Source of the DNA: an uncultured Rubripirellula sp.
Lineage (GTDB): Bacteria; Planctomycetota; Planctomycetia; Pirellulales; Pirellulaceae
DNA length: 64,000 bases
Reading direction: 5' to 3'
Assembly (NCBI GenBank): GCA_938075415.1
Contig: CALJHC010000010.1
Span: 62,001-126,000, forward strand
Part shown: in pieces, positions 52,519-64,000 of the stretch
Layout of the letters: the number at the start of each line of letters is the position of its first letter
Position numbering within the stretch: the first letter of the stretch is position 1
Notes under the pieces: generated by a model
Seen by the model: only the letters and a program-made list of their open reading frames with translations
Told to the model about the DNA's origin: nothing
Databases searched by the model: none
Made by a program: the position numbers and the translations under genes

Positions 52519-53472
52519 ATGGGCATTCAGGACACGGAACGAATCTTTGTCGCAGGACATCAAGGGATGGTGGGCGCCGCATTGATGCGCCGTTTGAAAT
52601 CCGAGTCTTGTAAAACATTGACAGTAGGACGTAAGGATTTAGACCTCTGCGACGCTGAGGCGGTTAATCAGTATTTTGATCGCCAGCGTCCGACCTCGGT
52701 GGTATTCGCCGCTGCCAAAGTGGGTGGCGTGCTCGCCAACCAACGTTACCCTGTGGAGTTCCTGTCACAGAATCTCTTGATGACCACGCACACCATCAAT
52801 GCTGCGTTTCGGTTTGGAGTCAAAAGATTTCTTTTTCTTGGTAGCACCTGTATTTATCCTCGCGACTGTCCTCAGCCAATTTCGGAAGCCGCTCTGTTGA
52901 CTGGGCCGTTGGAATCAACGAACGAGGCATACGCATTGGCCAAGATTGCTGGACTGAAGTTGTGCCAAGCGTATCGTTCGCAGCATGGTGTTTTGTACCA
53001 CAGCGCGATGCCCACGAACCTTTATGGCCCAGGTGATAACTATCATCCGGAGCACAGTCATGTACTGCCAGCTATGATTCGTCGGTTCCACGAGGCAAAG
53101 TTGTCGAAGCAGTCCGCAGTAAAAATTTGGGGAACAGGCAAATCTCGCCGAGATTTCTTGCATGTGGATGATCTGGCGGATGCCTTGGTTTTTCTGATGG
53201 GGCTGGAGGATCCACCGGATTGGGTGAATGTCGGCTCGGGTCGTGATCTAACGGTGTATGAGCTGGCTGAAAGAATCGCTGAAGTGGTCGGGTATCACGG
53301 TGACATCCTCACCGATGAATCACGACCCGATGGTGCGCCGGTGAAATGCACGGACATGACTTGTTTACATGGCATTGGCTGGAAGCATCGCATCGAATTG
53401 ATGGATGGACTGAAGCAAACCTATCAGGACTACAGGTCAGATTTGGATACCGGTGTGTTGCGATCGATCTGA
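52519..53472 (+). CDS. fcl: GDP-L-fucose synthase
   Basis: The 317-residue extended short-chain dehydrogenase has the Rossmann motif GHQGMVGAAL, AAAKVGGVLAN, GSTCIYP with the catalytic Ser/Cys, YALAK (Tyr-xxx-Lys) and PTNLYGPGDNYHPEHSHVLPA, the GDP-sugar site. It epimerises and reduces GDP-4-keto-6-deoxy-mannose to GDP-fucose with NADPH. The enzyme that makes its substrate (gmd) follows 311 bp downstream, so the pair makes GDP-fucose for surface polysaccharide or glycoproteins. No glycosyltransferase is adjacent. The ATG is preceded by a weak ribosome site. Confidence 0.94.
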   Translation: MGIQDTERIFVAGHQGMVGAALMRRLKSESCKTLTVGRKDLDLCDAEAVNQYFDRQRPTSVVFAAAKVGGVLANQRYPVEFLSQNLLMTTHTINAAFRFGVKRFLFLGSTCIYPRDCPQPISEAALLTGPLESTNEAYALAKIAGLKLCQAYRSQHGVLYHSAMPTNLYGPGDNYHPEHSHVLPAMIRRFHEAKLSKQSAVKIWGTGKSRRDFLHVDDLADALVFLMGLEDPPDWVNVGSGRDLTVYELAERIAEVVGYHGDILTDESRPDGAPVKCTDMTCLHGIGWKHRIELMDGLKQTYQDYRSDLDTGVLRSI

Positions 53473-53783
53473 TGACAGAGCATTGTTCGTGGTGTGCCCA
53501 GCTTTATCCAATGAGTGAAAGTGGCGGAGGGGACTCGTTTTTATTTTCATTAAGCGGATTTCAGCGAGATTGACCGAAAGGAGTCGCCTTTGGCCGTTTT
53601 TTTGTCAGGTCCGTTCGAATCCGCGGTCCTGTATTTTGGGTCCCTGTCTAGAATCTCGCATCTGTGCTCTTTTTGGGAATGTTGCTGAGGTCGGGTGCTC
53701 CTAACGGTTTTCGAAAATGTTTGCCTCTATTTGTCTCGTAGACTGGAACAGGTCGACCTTGAAGCTTGGTTGGTGAATTGCTG
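53473..53783. other. spacer between fcl and gmd
   Basis: No gene was recognised in these 311 bp. The length suggests gmd has its own promoter. No terminator with a T tract was seen. Confidence 0.45.
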
Positions 53784-54791
53784 ATGTCAAAAATTGCATT
53801 GATTACCGGAATTACCGGACAAGATGGTAGTTACCTCGCGGAACTGCTACTCGAAAAGGGATATGAAGTTCACGGTGTTGTTCGTCGGAGCAGCACCTTT
53901 GCGACCGAAAGAATTGATCACCTGTACAAGGATCCACAATCGGAATCCTCTTTACGGTTGCACTATGGTGATTTGACCGATGGTCAAGCGCTGACCAACC
54001 TGGTTCTGGAAGTGAAGCCGGACGAGATCTACAACTTGGGTGCACAAAGCCATGTTCGGGTCTCTTTTGATCAACCTGTCTATACCGTGCAGTCGGTTGG
54101 AGTGGGTGCGTTGAACGTACTCGAGGCGGCCAAGCTGCTGAACGTTGAGAAGAAGGTGCGAGTTTATCAGGCTAGCAGCAGTGAGATGTACGGGGATGTA
54201 TTTGAGATCCCTCAGAAGGAATCCACTCCCTTTAATCCGCAGTCGCCGTATGCCTGCGCAAAGGTGTATGCCTTTCACCAGACAGTGAATTATCGACGCA
54301 GCTATGATCTGTTTGCAAGTAATGGAATACTTTTTAACCACGAGTCAGAACGGCGTGGCGAGACTTTTGTCACCCGGAAAATTACGCGGGCAGCTGGAAG
54401 GATCAAGGCTGGTCTCCAGCAGAAACTCTTCCTTGGCAATCTGGATGCCAAGCGTGACTGGGGCTATGCGAAGGACTACGTCGATGGGATGCACCGGATT
54501 CTTCAGCATGATGCGGCGGATGACTTTGTGTTGGCGACAGGACATACTGCTTCCGTTCGTGAATTCTGCCAACTTGTGTTTGAACGGTTGGAATTAGACT
54601 ACGAAGATTTTGTTGCCGTTGACCCACGCTACTACCGACCGGCTGAAGTGCAGTTGTTGTTAGGTGATCCGAGTAAAGCTGAGCAAGAGCTGAATTGGAA
54701 GGCGAAGACCTCCCTGGAAGAACTAGCGGCGATCATGACAGATCATGACTATGATCTGGCCCAACGCGAGGCTCACGCCTCAAAATTTTAA
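53784..54791 (+). CDS. gmd: GDP-mannose 4,6-dehydratase
   Basis: The 335-residue protein shows [33 protein letters not shown] at the NAD(P)-binding start, [20 protein letters not shown] (Tyr-xxx-Lys), [24 protein letters not shown] and [15 protein letters not shown]. These are the family's dehydratase active-site and GDP-binding segments. It converts GDP-mannose to GDP-4-keto-6-deoxy-mannose, the substrate of the upstream fucose synthase. The start at 53784 fits the family; six more in-frame codons precede it. The active-site region has YACAK rather than the more usual YAVAK. Confidence 0.96.
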
Positions 54792-56333: not shown

Positions 56334-57881
56334 ATGTTGTTGCGACTCTTTGCATTGTGTCTCGTTGTCACTGTCTTTTCTGAATTTTCGCTGCACGCAG
56401 AGGAGCTTCCAGAAATCTCCAAGCGTGAGGATGCAAAGCCACGCAATGTTGTTTTTATTCTTACCGATGATCATCGATACGACGCGATGGGCTTCATGGG
56501 GCATCCTTTTCTTGAGACGCCGCATCTTGACTCGCTAGCGTCAAACGGCGTGCATCTGAAGAACGCATTCGTCACAACTTCCCTTTGCTCACCGAGTCGA
56601 GCTTCCATTTTAACGGGGCTTTACACACACAAGCATCGGGTGATTGACAATAATCGGCTGGTGCCGGAAGGGACCATTTTCTTCCCGCAGTATCTGCAGA
56701 ATGCGGGGTACAGCACAGCTTATATTGGAAAATGGCACATGGGTGGCGCTCACGACGATCCACGTCCAGGTTTCGATCATTGGATCAGTTTTCGCGGGCA
56801 AGGGAATTATCTGCCGCCGGGTCCTAAATACACCCTGAATGTGAACGGCCAGCGAGTCAAACAAAAGGGTTACATCACCGACGAGTTGACGGATTACGCC
56901 ATTGACTGGTTGGAGGAGCAAGATGATTCCGAGGAGCCCTTTTTTCTTTATCTTTCACACAAGGCGGTGCATTCTAATTTCACACCTTCAGAACGCCACG
57001 CAGATCGCTACAAGGATGTTGATTTGAGTTTTCTTCCGCGTGGTGAAGGAATCACTGCTGAGAATGATGCACCGCGTTGGGTTCGCGACCAGTTAAATAG
57101 TTGGCACGGAATCGACTTCAGTTACCACAGCGATAATGGCCTCGATTTTTTATACCGACGGTATTGTGAATCACTTTTAGCCGTCGATGACAGTGTCGGA
57201 AGAGTACTGGATCAACTCAAAAAGATGGGGATCTACGAAGAGACCTTGGTCGTCTACATGGGTGATAACGGATTCATGTGGGGAGAGCATGGTTTGATTG
57301 ATAAGCGAGTTTCCTATGAAGAATCGATTCGCGTACCCATGATGATGCAGTGCCCCGATTTGATTGATGGTGGCAAAGTTCTCGAGCAAGTCATTGGTAA
57401 TATTGATGTTGGTCCAACGATCTTGCACGCAGCTGGTTTGTCCACGCCCGAGTACATGGATGGCGAGAGTTTCTTGAATCTTGCCAATGAGCCGGATTCA
57501 GATTGGAGAGATTACTTCCTGTACGTTTATTATTGGGAGAAGAACTTCCCGCAGTCACCGACTCAGTTTGCGTTGCGTGGCGATCGATTCAAGTACATCA
57601 CCTACTATGGTTTGTGGGATGTTGACGAATTGTACGATCTGACGACCGATCCCGGCGAAAAAATCAATCTGATCAACAATCCTGAATATCAGACTGTCGT
57701 GAAAGAGATGGAGAATCGGCTTTATGAAATGCTTGCTGATGCGGGGGGAATGGATATTCCGATGAATCAACCAGCTGGTCGTTCACAGAATAAACGTTGG
57801 TTGGACAAGGGTGGACGAGAGTCTGCAGATTTCCCGAAGTCATTGGTGGTCGAAGAACCCATTAACCGAAACGCTAAGTAG
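56334..57881 (+). CDS. secreted formylglycine-type sulfatase
   Basis: The 515-residue protein has a signal peptide (to about LHA~22). VVFILTDDHRYDAMGFMGHPFLETPHLDSLA supplies the paired metal-binding Asp residues, and CSPSR at 85-89 is where Cys85 becomes formylglycine. GKWHMGG, LSHKAVHSNF and MGDNGFMWGEHGLIDKRVSYEESIRVP complete the type I sulfatase site. It would release sulfate from sulfated algal polysaccharides or other esters in the periplasm, as planctomycetes are known for. GGGAG (56322-56326) lies 7 nt before ATG. A strong terminator follows, so it is a single-gene unit. Confidence 0.95.
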   Translation: MLLRLFALCLVVTVFSEFSLHAEELPEISKREDAKPRNVVFILTDDHRYDAMGFMGHPFLETPHLDSLASNGVHLKNAFVTTSLCSPSRASILTGLYTHKHRVIDNNRLVPEGTIFFPQYLQNAGYSTAYIGKWHMGGAHDDPRPGFDHWISFRGQGNYLPPGPKYTLNVNGQRVKQKGYITDELTDYAIDWLEEQDDSEEPFFLYLSHKAVHSNFTPSERHADRYKDVDLSFLPRGEGITAENDAPRWVRDQLNSWHGIDFSYHSDNGLDFLYRRYCESLLAVDDSVGRVLDQLKKMGIYEETLVVYMGDNGFMWGEHGLIDKRVSYEESIRVPMMMQCPDLIDGGKVLEQVIGNIDVGPTILHAAGLSTPEYMDGESFLNLANEPDSDWRDYFLYVYYWEKNFPQSPTQFALRGDRFKYITYYGLWDVDELYDLTTDPGEKINLINNPEYQTVVKEMENRLYEMLADAGGMDIPMNQPAGRSQNKRWLDKGGRESADFPKSLVVEEPINRNAK

Positions 57882-57927
57882 GTTGAGAAGGTAAGGGACT
57901 TTGATTCCCGATGCGAAACATCTTTAG

Positions 57928-57965
57928 AAAAGCCACTCCGTAGAAAAAACGGAGTGGCTTTTTTT
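57928..57965 (+). terminator. intrinsic terminator after sulfatase
   Basis: A 14-bp stem (57928-57941 with 57949-57962) with a 7-nt A-rich loop merges into a T run. It lies 47 bp after the sulfatase stop. The left arm starts with AAAA, so it may also work in the opposite direction for the asparagine-synthetase-like gene. Confidence 0.92.
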
Positions 57966-58107
57966 AGAGGTCCATACTGGAGAACTTTGTCAACGCCGAC
58001 GCCTGATGCCTAGAGTTTGGACACAAAGAGTTTTGTAATTCGATTGAATCACGGATCGCTGCAATACCGTGCAGTGCCGCGGTGGAGCGAACGAGAGGTT
58101 CTTGCAC

Positions 58108-59523
58108 CTAGCGGTTGTACGCCTGCGCAAACTCATCCCGGAACGCTTGGTCTTGGGATGGAAATAATTGATCAAAGGTATTGAGGTCGGCTGCCCCACG
58201 CTGGAAACGTTGCTTTGGGAACACTGGCATTGTCGTTCCCGTGACCTGCTGGATTCCAGAGGAGACGATTGCGCCTTTGAGGCTGTAGAGTCGTTCGTGA
58301 TTCCAGTCAGTCAGTTTGACAAACGGAATTGCCTCGGCAATTTCAATCACGTCAGGAAGGGCGTAGGGGCTGAAGCCAAGAAACCCTAGGGAACTAGCCG
58401 GTGCGCTGGTTCGGATATGACCTCGGCTTTGGCCACCGCTGTAGACGAGTGAATGCTTGACGGCGTCGACGCCCCACCCTTCCTGATAGAGCATTCGGTT
58501 GCCCAGCACGCTGCGTATGGTCAGTTCCGGATTTTCCTCGATTGGATAATCTTTCAGGTTCTCATCGCCTCCGTCTCCGTCGATGAGGTACCGCCACTGT
58601 GGATACCGACGCCGCACCTCCTTGAGGAGTGCAAGTCCCATGGTTGCAGCTTGGACATCGAGTGCTTTGTAATCTTCAATGACTCGTACGGCCTCTCGCC
58701 AGCAGATTTGACTGGGTTCGACATCAACCGTTTCGAGGTACATTTCACGATCGACTTGCTTCAAGAAATCGATCGCCTGTTTTGCGTCGGTTGACTCGGG
58801 TCCGGTGGTTAATGTGAAAGCCTTTAAGCGTGCGGGGGACTCACCACGCCGCCGCAAGAGAAAGTCCAGCAAAATTAACAGACTGCCACTGTCGACACCG
58901 CCGCTGAACATCAGCCCGATTGGTTCGGTTTTCGGGATTGCATCGAGCCAGCCATCGCAAGCTTCTGCGAGTTTTCCGATGTACTGAGCCCCGATGGAAT
59001 CGATATCACTTTGCAGTCGGTTCCTTTTAGGTGCGAAGAACCGTTGCAGGGTCGGGTTTGGATCGGGGCAACCGACCAGCTGAAGCTCGAGGAGATGGTG
59101 TGCTGGTACCATCCGCGTGTAGGACGGATGAAATTGATCCCCCAATCCCTCACGCTCCAACTGTTCACGAATTTCGTCCATTCGCTCAGCGATGATCAAT
59201 GCGGGGCCTTCTGCTCGCTTTGCGAGGAAGTATCGCATCGGTCGGCCGATTGAGCGAGCCATTCGGATGGTCTTTCCCGATTGTTCACAGATTGCGAATT
59301 GGCCGCGAATGCTGCGAACCGCTGCGGGATCACCCAGTCGAACCGCTTCGGACGCTTCCTGAAGTGTCGTGCCCAGAAAAATGTTTCCCTGAGGATCGAG
59401 CAGATTGACCACTCGGTCAATCAGTTCCATGGCACGACCGTCAAAATCCCGCTGAACGGGTTGTTTTTTGTCCATGGTGGGAACGTTATGGGTGGCTTGG
59501 GAGCGGGAGGGCGAGTTAGACAT
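58108..59523 (-). CDS. asparagine-synthetase-like amidotransferase/ATP-pyrophosphatase protein
   Basis: The 471-residue protein has the AsnB synthetase domain (~180-440) with SGGVDS (207-212), the PP-loop that adenylates a carboxylate, then DGDGGDENLKDYP. The N-terminal half (~30-170) resembles the glutaminase-like beta domain (GTTLQEASEAVRLGDPAAVRSIRGQFAICEQ, GRPMRYFLAKRAEGPALIIAERMDEI). The N-terminal catalytic Cys2 is missing, so it cannot hydrolyse glutamine itself. This suggests a beta-lactam-synthetase-like or ligase role on a non-aspartate acid (inference). It is divergent from the acyl-ligase fusion, with which it may act. Met at 59523 is chosen; the frame reaches 59604. Confidence 0.85.
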   Translation of the reverse strand: MSNSPSRSQATHNVPTMDKKQPVQRDFDGRAMELIDRVVNLLDPQGNIFLGTTLQEASEAVRLGDPAAVRSIRGQFAICEQSGKTIRMARSIGRPMRYFLAKRAEGPALIIAERMDEIREQLEREGLGDQFHPSYTRMVPAHHLLELQLVGCPDPNPTLQRFFAPKRNRLQSDIDSIGAQYIGKLAEACDGWLDAIPKTEPIGLMFSGGVDSGSLLILLDFLLRRRGESPARLKAFTLTTGPESTDAKQAIDFLKQVDREMYLETVDVEPSQICWREAVRVIEDYKALDVQAATMGLALLKEVRRRYPQWRYLIDGDGGDENLKDYPIEENPELTIRSVLGNRMLYQEGWGVDAVKHSLVYSGGQSRGHIRTSAPASSLGFLGFSPYALPDVIEIAEAIPFVKLTDWNHERLYSLKGAIVSSGIQQVTGTTMPVFPKQRFQRGAADLNTFDQLFPSQDQAFRDEFAQAYNR

Positions 59524-59884
59524 GTGGATTCGGTAAAATGAGTTTTTCGGGTTGAGCCAACCTCGGCATGACGGTTCACATCTTGATATGCGGAAATCCG
59601 ACAATAGACATCGGGGTTATTAGCGCTTTTGGCGTGTTACTCGATAAAATCACAGTTGAGTGAGTGATTCGTCGTGAATCATTCGTGGCGTAAAAAAAAG
59701 ATCATCGCCAGCGACTTACCCTATTTTACCGCAATTTGTCACCGTTTGTCGGTTCTCCATGAGTGTTGTTCTCGTTGCTTCATGGCGGATCCGGTAGTCG
59801 ACGGGTACGGTTGCGGCGTTACAGATCTTACATTTTTCGTCAGCGGATACCTAGCGGCAAAGCCTCTCGAAGAGCGCGAAGCGG
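59524..59884. promoter_or_regulatory. divergent control region of the acyl-ligase/amidotransferase pair
   Basis: The 361-bp spacer contains TGATTC-GTCGT-GAATCA (59665-59681), a perfect 6-bp inverted repeat with a 5-nt spacer, placed between the two divergent genes. It is a candidate operator for joint control. No promoter could be fixed by eye, and nothing else was found. Confidence 0.35.
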
Positions 59885-62800
59885 GTGTCGGCGGAAAAAA
59901 GTGTATTCACCATTGATCCAAACTGGCAGCGAACCATCGTGGATTTGCACATATTTGACGGCGTTGAGCCTCCACCACGCACGAATTTCACCGATGTGCT
60001 TCAGCATTGGGCGAATCTTCGTCCCGACCAACCAGCGTTCATCTTCACGGATTTAGAGTCCGTCGAGGAACAAGTCACCAACGCTGAACTGTGGAGGGAG
60101 GTGCGCGCTTTGGCCGGAGCGTTGCAGGATCAATGCCGGATCCGGGCAGGCGACCGAGTTCTTTTACTCTACCCGCCCGGTATCGAGTTTGTGATTGGTT
60201 TCTTCGCCTGTCACGCCGCCGGGGCAATTGCAGTGCCGGCCTATCCACCTCGAAGGAATCGTAAAGCCTCTCGTATTCGCTCCATTGTCGTTGACTCTGA
60301 CGCTCGGTGGGCTCTTTCAACTCAAGCCGTCGTGGATTTGCTCAAGGGTGATCGTCCCCACGATGACTTGATCGGCGTTCAGTTGTTGGGTACCGACAAT
60401 CCAGGCATGAGGGACTTGGACAAGTGGCGTCCACCAAAGTTGCAGGACTCATCGCTTGCAGTGCTTCAGTACACTTCGGGTTCAACCGGGTCACCCAAGG
60501 GAGTGATGCTGAACCATGCGAACTTGATTGCCAACAGCGAACTGATTCGAGAGGCGTTCCAACCCGCATCGAACACCGTGGGGATGACTTGGTTACCGAC
60601 CTATCACGACATGGGGTTAGTGGGTGGAGTGCTGATGCCGCTATACATGGGACGCACAAATGTGCAAACGAGCCCCATGACCTTTCTGCAGAGACCTTTG
60701 CGTTGGCTTCAGGCGATCACCCGCTATGGAGTCACCGTGAGCGGTGGACCAAACTTCGCCTATCAATTGTGCGTGGACAAAATTCATGATGACGAGTTGA
60801 GCGGCATCGACTTGTCGTCCTGGGCCATTGCGTTCAATGGTGCTGAGCCTATTCGCTCTTCGACGCTCGAGGCGTTTTGCGAACGGTTTGAGCCGTATGG
60901 TTTCAACCGCGGAGCGTTGTTGCCTTGTTACGGAATGGCAGAAACCACCTTGATTGTCACCGGTGGACCGTCTGAGACGCGCCCGGTGCTTTCGACGTTT
61001 GACGGTGGTGGTCTAGAGCAGAAGATTGTACGTCCCGTTGGGGCTGATCACGCAAACGCACGCAAGCTGGTTGGTTGTGGGGCCATACTTGCCGACGAAA
61101 AGGTCACGATTGTTGATCCAGAATCCCTTCAGGTATTGCCGGGAGGAACAATTGGCGAGATTTGGGTTCAAAGTCCGTCGGTTGGTGTCGGATATTACCA
61201 ACGCAAAGAGGCGACTGAACGCACCTTTGGTGCCTACACCGATGAAGGTGAAGGGCCTTTTTTACGCACAGGTGATCTCGGTTTTCTTCACGAGGGGCAA
61301 CTTTACGTATCAGGTCGTCTCAAGGACATGATCATCGTTCGCGGGGTCAATCGTTACCCGCAGGACATCGAAGAGACGGTTGAGCAGGCCAGTGATGTTG
61401 TGCAAGCTGGGTCAGTTGCTGCGTTTGCAATGGATTACGAAGGTCGCGAGCAGTTGGTCGTGGTTGCCGAGACGGTAAGAATTCGGGATATCGATTGGGA
61501 CGCTAACTTGCAGGCAATTCGCCGAGCTGTCACCGAGGAGCATGACCTGCCACCCGATGCAATCTATCTTGTGCGTAACAGCAGTGTGCCCAAGACCAGC
61601 AGCGGTAAAATTCAGCGACATGCCTGTCTACACGCGGTGCGTGATGGTGATTTGAAGATCATTGCCAAGTGGGTTCGCTGGGAGGAAGCAGAAGGCGGCG
61701 GGTTTGCAATGGGCGCCCAACCGATGATGAAAGCTGCCGCGGCGGCCACAGCGTCGGAGGAGATCGGCGAAGCAGATGTGAATCCAGCGATTGTTGAGGC
61801 CATTGAACACCACGTCCGTCGAATTGCCGGGGAACGCGCGGCGCAACTTGACCTCAGCACGAATATTGTGCTGGACTTGGGGCTCGACAGCTTGGAACGT
61901 CTCGAGATTGCCCGAATGCTCGAGCGAACTTTCGGTGGACGATTTCCCGAACAGGTTTTGGATGAAATCGAAACGATAGGCCAAACAGCGGTCGCTGTTG
62001 AACGGTACTTACCGAGCGGTGCCGGGTCGAGAGCTGAGGCGATGTTGGAAGGGGGAGAATCCAAACAGGTCATCCCCCCGACCAACGCGGAGCGTCCGCC
62101 ACAGGAATCGGTCGAACCCGAATCACGCGTGGAGGATTTCGGGGAGTATCGTCGGCTAAAGGCTGCCATGCAGCAAATGATGATGACCGGAGTACCCAAT
62201 CCGTACTTTACGGTTCACGAGGGCGTTGTTCGTGACACAACAGTTGTGGATGGCCAAGAGTTGATCAGTTTTGCGTCTTACAACTATCTTGGGCTCAGCG
62301 GCCATCCCGCAGTGGTGGAGGCTTCATCGGCGGCAATACAGAAATATGGCACGAGCGTCTCGGCCAGTCGTTTGGTCTCGGGCGAGAAGCCGATTCACGG
62401 TCAGTTGGAGAGGAAAATTGCAAAATGGATCGGTGTCGATGATTCCATTTTGATGGTCGGTGGTCACGCAACTAATGAGACAACGATTGGTCATCTCGTG
62501 GGTGCCGGGGATCTTATCGTCCACGATTCACTTGCACACAACAGCATCGTGCAGGGGGCATTGCTCTCGGGAGCACGCCGACGTCCGTTCCCACACAACG
62601 ACTATGAAGCCCTTGACCGCATGCTGACGGAAATGAGGTCCCAGTATCGTCGAATCCTAATCGCGATCGAAGGGGTTTACAGCATGGATGGTGATTTTGC
62701 GAATGTTCCGGAGTTTATCGAAGTCAAGAAGAGACATGGTGCAATGCTGATGGTTGATGAAGCACATAGCTTTGGAACCATGGGGCGTACCGGCCATGGA

Positions 62801-63358
62801 ATGGCGGAACACTTCGGGATCGATGCGAGGGACGTTGATATCTGGATGGGGACACTCAGTAAGTCGGCCGCATCATGTGGCGGCTACATCGCTGGTTCTA
62901 AGGCGTTGGTTGAGTTACTACGCTACACTGCGCCGGGGTTTGTTTTCAGCGTTGGAGCACCTCCAGCGCAGGTTGCAGCGGCTCTGGCAGCCCTGGAAAC
63001 CTTGCAGAAGGAACCGGACCGAGTGGATCGGTTACGGGAACGCAGTGATCTTTTTCTCTCGTTGTGTCGTGAGGCTGAACTCGACACTGGTGACAGCCAG
63101 GGCACGCCGGTCATTCCCGTGATCACCGGTAATTCGATGGTCGCGCTGCGTCTGTCCAACCGTCTAAGGGGTGATGGAATCAATGTGCAGCCAATTCTTT
63201 ACCCAGCAGTTGACGAATCCGCGGCGCGGTTGAGATTCTTTATTACCAGTGAGCATAGTGAAGAACAGATTCGTTACACCGTCGCAAAAGTAGCCGAACG
63301 ATACGCCGAGCTCGGTTTTCAACCCACCAGCCTCGCTTCTGCGGCGGAGTCAAATTGA
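59885..63358 (+). CDS. fatty-acyl-AMP ligase / acyl carrier / alpha-oxoamine synthase fusion
   Basis: The 1157-residue protein has three modules. (1) A fatty-acyl-AMP ligase (~20-590) has YTSGSTGSPKGVML from Tyr196, GMTWLPTYHDMGLVGG, PCYGMAETTL and LKDMIIVRGVNRYPQDIEE. (2) An acyl carrier domain (~635-715) has phosphopantetheine Ser669 in LDLGLDSLERLEI. (3) An 8-amino-7-oxononanoate/serine-palmitoyl-transferase-type domain (~745-1150) has SYNYLGLSGHP, GHATNETTIGHL, VDEAHSFGTMGRTG and PLP-lysine Lys993 in GTLSKSAASCGGY. Together these can activate a fatty acid, hold it on the carrier and condense it with an amino acid, releasing CO2 to give an alpha-amino ketone. The start is GTG with a weak ribosome site. 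Substrates are inferred. Confidence 0.93.
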   Translation: MSAEKSVFTIDPNWQRTIVDLHIFDGVEPPPRTNFTDVLQHWANLRPDQPAFIFTDLESVEEQVTNAELWREVRALAGALQDQCRIRAGDRVLLLYPPGIEFVIGFFACHAAGAIAVPAYPPRRNRKASRIRSIVVDSDARWALSTQAVVDLLKGDRPHDDLIGVQLLGTDNPGMRDLDKWRPPKLQDSSLAVLQYTSGSTGSPKGVMLNHANLIANSELIREAFQPASNTVGMTWLPTYHDMGLVGGVLMPLYMGRTNVQTSPMTFLQRPLRWLQAITRYGVTVSGGPNFAYQLCVDKIHDDELSGIDLSSWAIAFNGAEPIRSSTLEAFCERFEPYGFNRGALLPCYGMAETTLIVTGGPSETRPVLSTFDGGGLEQKIVRPVGADHANARKLVGCGAILADEKVTIVDPESLQVLPGGTIGEIWVQSPSVGVGYYQRKEATERTFGAYTDEGEGPFLRTGDLGFLHEGQLYVSGRLKDMIIVRGVNRYPQDIEETVEQASDVVQAGSVAAFAMDYEGREQLVVVAETVRIRDIDWDANLQAIRRAVTEEHDLPPDAIYLVRNSSVPKTSSGKIQRHACLHAVRDGDLKIIAKWVRWEEAEGGGFAMGAQPMMKAAAAATASEEIGEADVNPAIVEAIEHHVRRIAGERAAQLDLSTNIVLDLGLDSLERLEIARMLERTFGGRFPEQVLDEIETIGQTAVAVERYLPSGAGSRAEAMLEGGESKQVIPPTNAERPPQESVEPESRVEDFGEYRRLKAAMQQMMMTGVPNPYFTVHEGVVRDTTVVDGQELISFASYNYLGLSGHPAVVEASSAAIQKYGTSVSASRLVSGEKPIHGQLERKIAKWIGVDDSILMVGGHATNETTIGHLVGAGDLIVHDSLAHNSIVQGALLSGARRRPFPHNDYEALDRMLTEMRSQYRRILIAIEGVYSMDGDFANVPEFIEVKKRHGAMLMVDEAHSFGTMGRTGHGMAEHFGIDARDVDIWMGTLSKSAASCGGYIAGSKALVELLRYTAPGFVFSVGAPPAQVAAALAALETLQKEPDRVDRLRERSDLFLSLCREAELDTGDSQGTPVIPVITGNSMVALRLSNRLRGDGINVQPILYPAVDESAARLRFFITSEHSEEQIRYTVAKVAERYAELGFQPTSLASAAESN

Positions 63359-63547
63359 ATCGGTGACTTTTGGGATCTCTGTGAGACTTTCGATAACATC
63401 TGACCAACAATGCCCTTGCGAGGAATGGACTTCATTCTAAAATCGGGTTTGACCCGACGCGGAACGTTGGATTTGCTGTTACGGCACCTTCTGGATGGAT
63501 GATCGTGCGTTCCGCCCAAGAGATTTCCCCCATCAGGAGTATGGACG

Positions 63548-63730
63548 TTGCTTACTGAGTCAACTGTTGAGACCATGTTTCGCCGCCTCATGAACGAACC
63601 AAATCGCAATGAGGAGACTTTTGACAAGGCGGAAGAACTTCTCGAGGATGAACTTCGTCCCGAAAGTCCTCTACGCCATCGTCTCTCGGTTGAATTGGAT
63701 GAACTGCGGTCGCTCGCGGCCAAGAACTAG
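63548..63730 (+). CDS. small acidic helical protein downstream of the fusion
   Basis: The 60-residue protein is mostly charged and helical (EETFDKAEELLEDELRPESPLRHRLSVELDELRSLAAKN), and no family was recognised. TTG 63548 is chosen because AGGAG (63535-63539) lies 8 nt upstream; an ATG at 63541 runs into a stop after five codons. It follows the fusion by 189 bp on the same strand and could belong to its unit. Its size and charge would suit a carrier-type partner or regulator, but there is no phosphopantetheine motif. Confidence 0.55.
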   Translation: MLTESTVETMFRRLMNEPNRNEETFDKAEELLEDELRPESPLRHRLSVELDELRSLAAKN

Positions 63731-63887
63731 ACCATCGATGAAAATCTCCTGAATCCCTGGCAGCGGTTTTCTCCACGAGTGCTATTTTGGCAATTCGTAG
63801 GACGTCAGGTTTGTTGCTGGGGACGATGTGGTTTGGCAGAGCTTTCAGCTTGAAGGCGTAAGAAAAATCCATCAACCAGTCATGCCC

Positions 63888-64000
63888 AGAGCTTGCGGAG
63901 ATTCAGAGCTTGCTTAGGCCTAGAGCTTTTTGGAATCGCAGAGCTTTTTGGAGGTCCAGAGCTTTTTGAAGGCCCAGAGCTTTTTGAAGGCCCAGAGCTT
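63888..64000. repeat. 17-18-bp tandem array running off the window end
   Basis: Units begin AGAGCTT: 63888-63904 and 63905-63921 (17 bp, divergent), then 63922-63939, 63940-63957, 63958-63975 and 63976-63993 (18 bp, AGAGCTTTTTGRAGGYCC type, the last two identical), and a partial copy to 64000. Copies become more alike toward the right, as expected if the array grows at one end. The rest of 63731-63887 shows nothing. Confidence 0.92.

Follow-up and report, generated by a model that had tools for sequence, protein, structure and literature searches.

Fatty acyl-AMP ligases (FAALs), carrier proteins, and alpha-oxoamine synthases are families that together lead from a fatty acid and ATP via acyl-AMP and the acyl-carrier to a 2-amino-3-ketone, with loss of CO2. 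The RkpA/RkpG pair of Sinorhizobium meliloti (WcbR type in Burkholderia), which serves a K-antigen capsule lipid, presents on a carrier domain an acyl chain that is built by a polyketide synthase (PKS). For rkpA and rkpGHIJ of S. meliloti, a role in providing a lipophilic carrier or anchor of the capsule has been proposed (PMC3557214). The AasR/AcpR/Spt system of Caulobacter and Rhodobacteria comprises a dedicated acyl activation, a carrier, and a PLP-dependent oxoamine synthase, and in Rhodobacteria these three jobs are done by separate proteins (PMC9386255). In BioWF of Corynebacterium amycolatum, an acyl-activating enzyme is fused to an AONS (PMC9544090).

The protein described here has the domains for all three functions in a single polypeptide. 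It resembles RkpA/RkpG in that its oxoamine synthase belongs to the same clade (two RkpG-type proteins are 52-57% identical to it) and in that the acyl chain would be presented on a carrier domain, but an FAAL of the same polypeptide would activate the chain, whereas a PKS builds it in RkpA/RkpG, and the gene has a stand-alone location without Kps capsule genes. In comparison to the three genes of the AasR/AcpR/Spt system, it is one fused protein with a PLP domain outside the serine palmitoyltransferase (SPT) models, and it differs from BioWF, which is a CoA ligase without a carrier domain that is devoted to pimelate and biotin. A KS-AT-carrier-AONS protein of Streptomyces anthocyanicus (WP_331764634) likewise joins a carrier to an AONS, the latter being 58% identical, but with a polyketide synthase front end in place of the FAAL. 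In the fusion, known domains are combined in a new way, the synthase being of the RkpG type, and its role is a core one. We consider it likely that two unrelated systems meet at this locus, namely a self-contained alpha-amino-ketone lipid synthase and an AsnB-like member of a separate gene trio.

The window, which is the whole stretch of 64,000 nucleotides that was analyzed, is part of contig C10 in a genome of 5.96 Mb. The features are as follows, with their basis in brackets:

58108..59475 (conserved part), minus strand: AsnB-like PP-loop ligase without the glutaminase Cys (Pfam PF00733 at 1e-10, alignment, AF2 model)
58108-59604, minus strand: listed open reading frame of the AsnB-like gene, extending past the conserved part
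59476..59884, no strand: divergent intergenic region between the AsnB-like gene and the fusion gene (sequence, homologue starts)
59885..63358, plus strand: FAAL-carrier-oxoamine synthase fusion, 1157 aa (Pfam domains, homologues)
59981..61672, plus strand: fatty acyl-AMP ligase domain, residues 33-596 (FAAL structure matches, adenylation residues)
61805..61990, plus strand: carrier domain, residues 641-702, with the phosphopantetheine Ser669 at 61889-61891 (Pfam PP-binding, 1.9e-10)
62237..63304, plus strand: RkpG-type alpha-oxoamine synthase domain, approximately residues 785-1140, with the PLP Lys993 at 62861-62863 (sequence matches, tree)
63548..63730, plus strand: small helical protein of 60 aa, conserved, starting with TTG (conservation, ribosome-binding site)

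An Rfam search of 57000-64000 gave no match, and a scan for promoters and terminators gave nothing above chance. Elsewhere in the window, at 52519-54791, a GDP-L-fucose synthase-like gene (444 bits, below the NCBIfam cut-off of 500) precedes a gene for GDP-mannose 4,6-dehydratase.

The Pfam domains of the fusion protein, AMP-binding, DIP2-like AMP C-terminal, PP-binding, and Aminotran_1_2, all score above their cut-offs; the exact start of the protein is unsure, with homology setting in at about residue 17-30 in the comparison with homologues. Ser669 of the carrier and Lys993 of the PLP domain are invariant in the 43 full-length homologues, and the PLP lysine is accompanied in all 43 by the two conserved histidines of alpha-oxoamine synthases. 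The ligase half aligns over its full length to FAAL structures, and its nearest solved relatives are FAALs, with 534 bits to the polyketide synthase FAAL 7r7e and 407 bits to 3kxw, besides FadD23, FadD28, and FadD32. The first-pass annotation had read the protein as an FAAL, a carrier with Ser669, and an AONS/SPT-type PLP domain with Lys993, and this composition is confirmed by Pfam and the homologue alignment. The FAAL active site is likewise in order, with the adenylation motifs A3, A5, A7, A8, and A10, including Lys575, being kept in 39-42 of the 43 homologues.

The domains and their intact residues also support the proposed formation of an amino ketone from a free fatty acid and an amino acid as the likely chemistry. 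Using ATP, the FAAL domain would adenylate the free fatty acid, whose acyl group would move onto the phosphopantetheine of Ser669 in the protein's own carrier, and the PLP domain with Lys993 would condense the acyl-carrier with an amino acid, yielding a long-chain 2-amino-3-ketone with loss of CO2. We infer this order of the reactions, as well as the long chain and the lipid role. In its mode of action, the fusion would correspond to RkpA/RkpG of rhizobia, except that fatty-acid salvage replaces polyketide assembly.

With E<=1e-120 as the threshold, the fusion or a close relative is encoded in 59 of 60 genomes from the family; some 50 of these copies are of full length, and identities are 48-76%. 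It is therefore a core gene and not a sporadic cluster. If the proposed chemistry is true, this near-universal one-protein amino-ketone lipid synthase gives the Pirellulaceae a core lipid; to our knowledge, the structure of a core lipid from such a synthase has not been established in this family. In the phylum panel, the count was at least 14 of 392 genomes with two candidates scored per genome, and a later scan scored three. Outside the family, similarly sized fusions occur in two genomes (f2) from the same order, and family f30 has open reading frames of about 1,090-1,150 aa, while genus g44 and others have proteins of some 2,500-2,600 residues that terminate in the same carrier and PLP domains. 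As a side observation, proteins of about 2,540-2,590 aa (L131-L134, L221, G018/G395) end with a carrier and the same PLP domain in the manner of an RkpA-RkpG fusion, and the genomes concerned mostly also carry the FAAL fusion.

The genes flanking the fusion are not conserved, except for a convergent gene for a beta-barrel BBP7-like protein, which is a neighbor in 10 of 27 family loci; the copy belonging to this locus lies just past the window at 64170-65375 (L002 10170-11375). Conserved reductase, acyltransferase, or polysaccharide neighbors were not found across the loci compared.

As to the kind of oxoamine synthase, the PLP domain scored below the cut-off with each of the NCBIfam BioF, SPT, KBL, and ALAS models. 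The best match was bioF (TIGR00858, 355-358 bits against a cut-off of 426.45), and the SPT equivalog models NF047600, NF047599, and NF047603 gave 318, 277, and 212 bits against cut-offs of 640, 500, and 670, respectively. By sequence, the nearest solved structure is the SPT of S. multivorum (234 bits), with E. coli BioF reaching 168 bits. In a maximum-likelihood tree of 62 PLP domains, which includes a single SPT and in which the reference branches are few and long and were left unordered, a branch supported at 100/99 unites 57 rows, comprising the fusion domains, PKS-linked planctomycete domains, and RkpG-type proteins of S. meliloti and a Pseudomonas plasmid. This branch excludes the genome's own BioF-like protein, KBL, the AONS/KBL of T. 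thermophilus, and SPT. The question raised at the outset, whether the domain might group tightly with BioF, is answered by its placement outside BioF and together with the RkpG-type proteins.

The RkpG-type gene of S. meliloti is located between an RkpA-like PKS gene and an SDR gene, followed by a Capsule_synth gene and KpsF, which matches the rkpAGHIJ arrangement, and the Pseudomonas gene adjoins a type I PKS gene and two Capsule_synth genes. In the genome studied here, Capsule_synth (PF05159, KpsC/KpsS type) has no match, and it was found in only five of the 60 family genomes, so a capsule role is not simply transferable. The product of the fusion is probably not a Kps capsule anchor, as the Kps-type capsule genes are absent.

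The affiliation with the RkpG-type proteins that adjoin PKS, SDR, and Capsule_synth genes suggests that the product might still be a lipid anchor or carrier of some surface polysaccharide, in line with the rkpA/rkpGHIJ proposal (PMC3557214), and a GDP-fucose synthase-like gene and a GDP-mannose dehydratase gene, located within the window 5-8 kb upstream, would suit such a role. However, PF05159 is absent from this genome and from 55 of the 60 family genomes, although nearly every family genome has the fusion, and no polysaccharide gene is among its conserved neighbors, and we regard this role as unlikely. A possible but doubtful alternative is that the fusion is the equivalent of an SPT that starts sphingolipid (ceramide) synthesis, with the FAAL and the carrier replacing AasR and AcpR. 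SPTs with specialized ACP and acyl-ACP synthetase genes are known in Rhodobacteria (PMC9386255), Spt-like genes have been reported in 138 Planctomycetota MAGs (PMC11334938), and S. multivorum SPT is the closest solved structure. This has to be set against the scores far below the SPT cut-offs, the tree that groups the domain with RkpG and not with its one SPT, and conserved neighbors that include no ceramide-like genes.

The bioF match could point to a biotin enzyme acting on pimelate, especially as BioWF fusions are known that also take other acids (PMC9544090), but the activating domain is an FAAL and not BioW. We rejected a biotin role on the basis of the bioF cut-off, of the tree, in which the domain is apart from the genome's own BioF, and of the separate stand-alone BioF-like gene in this genome, although the latter (371 bits) is also below that cut-off; a biotin role is thus extremely improbable.

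The AsnB-like open reading frame matches Asn_synthase PF00733 weakly, and its likely true start is at about 59475 (ATG, residue 44), given that the first residue of most homologues corresponds to listed residues 47-62. The 36-row alignment of AsnB-like proteins showed an invariant SGGxDS PP-loop and DGDGGDEN motif, whereas the N-terminal catalytic Cys of glutamine-hydrolyzing AsnB was found neither in the homologue alignment nor in the model. With TIGR01536 (AsnB), the protein reached only 34 bits against a cut-off of 267.1, and no PDB chain matched its sequence at E<=1. The AF2 model (mean pLDDT 83) has the Ntn-like plus PP-loop synthetase fold and aligned over its whole length in VIA-align, with Z 24.6 to human ASNS (385 residues, rmsd 3.7) and Z 24.5 to beta-lactam synthetase. 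As the model aligns only from residues 37-40 of AsnB/ASNS and beta-lactam synthetase, the strand with the glutaminase Cys is absent. Alignment and model thus agree with the initial description of a divergent AsnB-like gene with an intact PP-loop and without the glutaminase Cys. The most conserved stretch, model residues 308-350 (about 58426-58554 of the window), reads KDYPIEENPELTIRSV...YSGGQSRGH and is predicted with very low confidence; perhaps it is ordered only with substrate or a partner.

The protein therefore shares with beta-lactam synthetase and AsnB the PP-loop and, in the model, the whole-length fold, and with beta-lactam synthetase also the absence of the catalytic Cys, but it differs from both in an Ntn domain that lacks the first approximately 36 residues, an invariant loop of its own (308-350), the lack of a detectable PDB sequence match, and its association with radical SAM and flavin partners. 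Cys-less AsnB relatives such as beta-lactam synthetase adenylate a carboxylate, which is then attacked by an amine other than glutamine-derived ammonia. By analogy, we infer that the AsnB-like enzyme would form an amide by carboxylate adenylation without using glutamine, and that the radical SAM and flavin enzymes would act in the same pathway.

When 84,980 species genomes were scanned, 521 relatives of the AsnB-like gene emerged, the closest of which are from Rubripirellula and Rhodopirellula. Among the best 80 of these 521 loci, the fusion is adjacent to the AsnB-like gene only in the nine closest. With the family genomes added, the divergent pair is present in 13 distinct genomes, nearly all of them from one Rubripirellula clade of the AsnB-like tree, and in most relatives the two genes are not neighbors, an outcome that the first-pass annotation had named as refuting its reading. 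The context that is widespread on the tree is adjacency to the RaSEA-like radical SAM gene and not to the fusion, and the fusion itself shows no such link, as nearly all family genomes carry it with or without the trio.

A single pathway, in which the AsnB-like enzyme amidates or lactamizes the amino-ketone product of the fusion, would fit the divergent neighborhood in the 13 genomes. It is nevertheless very unlikely, as the fusion is present in 59 but the AsnB-like gene in only 35 of the 60 family genomes, as the AsnB-like gene tracks the radical SAM and flavin genes, and as it is the RaSEA-like adjacency that is widespread. The AsnB-like gene almost certainly belongs to another, uncharacterized pathway. 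There could still be a lineage-specific link to the fusion, given the 13 genomes. These include one genome (G028; L160, L188) that has two AsnB-like copies, one in a radical SAM/flavin operon and the second divergent from the fusion; in another genome (G055), a radical SAM gene, the AsnB-like gene, and the fusion are all neighbors.

The functional pairing with the fusion had to be abandoned in favor of the trio, since the presence of the AsnB-like gene is strictly tied to that of the radical SAM gene and almost as strictly to that of the flavin enzyme gene. A same-strand radical SAM gene follows the AsnB-like gene in 34 loci and the flavin enzyme gene is found in 25, with the operon order AsnB-like/radical SAM/flavin enzyme in loci of Planctomycetota, Rhodothermota, and Bacteroidota. 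In the panel of 392 Planctomycetota genomes, the AsnB-like and radical SAM genes are present in the identical 22 genomes and nowhere else. The family panel has the AsnB-like gene in 35, the radical SAM gene in 34, the flavin enzyme gene in 36, and all three in 33 of 60 genomes. Of the 35 AsnB-like-positive genomes, the radical SAM gene is present in 33 and the flavin gene in 34 (p of about 1e-13 by Fisher's test; these statistics ignore phylogeny, though presence and absence vary within genera, in the phylum panel within g44, g63, and g65). The AsnB-like and radical SAM genes are within about 1 kb of each other in about 25 of 33 genomes and apart in eight, including the genome studied here, in which the radical SAM and flavin genes lie side by side on another contig (C49:36167-38739; L155 8167-10739). 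Relatives of the AsnB-like gene on plasmids were not found.

The CxxxCxxC motif of the radical SAM protein is invariant in 25 rows, while the copy of this genome is divergent and does not have the C-terminal Cys motif of most relatives. With TIGR01210 (archaeosine RaSEA), the protein of one locus (L072) scored 110.8 bits and the genome's own copy 65.1 bits, below the cut-off of 212. The model (pLDDT 94.7) matches the folds of MgmA, PFL-AE, Elp3, and queuine lyase with TM of about 0.5-0.6, which are generic relatives. The flavin enzyme is closest to the halogenases PltM and tetracycline 7-halogenase and has the catalytic Lys (K87 of PltM) in 44 of 44 sequences, but instead of the halogenase motif WxWxIP most have WxWxLR, with the Pro in two of the 44.

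As far as our literature search shows, in which no published description was found, the trio is an undescribed pathway, and it is a more unexpected result than the fusion. Its strictly matching presence and absence across the phylum make it a well-defined target for an unknown pathway. The closest parallel is archaeal, where ArcS adds lysine to preQ0, RaSEA turns the adduct into archaeosine, and both form a complex (PMC11298593). In the trio, a RaSEA-related radical SAM protein is likewise paired with a putative nitrogen-attaching enzyme, but the trio is bacterial, an AsnB fold replaces ArcS, the radical SAM protein is below the RaSEA cut-off, and a flavin enzyme is added. A nitrogen transfer in the manner of ArcS/RaSEA may be possible for the bacterial pair, but this is no more than a guess. 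In the complete scheme, which is speculative and improbable, the ligase would couple a carboxylate with an amino acid, the adduct would be cleaved by the radical SAM enzyme so that only the nitrogen stays behind, as in the ArcS/RaSEA logic but independent of glutamine, and the product would be halogenated or oxygenated by the flavin enzyme.

Two other candidates were considered for the trio. A RiPP precursor was rejected, as the search for conserved small open reading frames near the trio operons gave only alternative-frame artefacts, and the ammosamide cluster was rejected as a counterpart because its asparagine-synthase step differs and is unproven.

The small helical gene that had been noted behind the fusion proved to be real and conserved. 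In 17 of 48 fusion loci, a gene for this 60-aa protein is found 92-365 nt downstream, every time with a TTG or GTG start and in most copies preceded by an AGGAG-like ribosome site, and a single copy, linked to the fusion or not, is present in 35 of the 60 family genomes. A Pfam search with the protein gave no match; possibly it helps the fusion. At the end of the window (63893-64000), there is a short repeat that translates to FEGPEL / SSGPSK.
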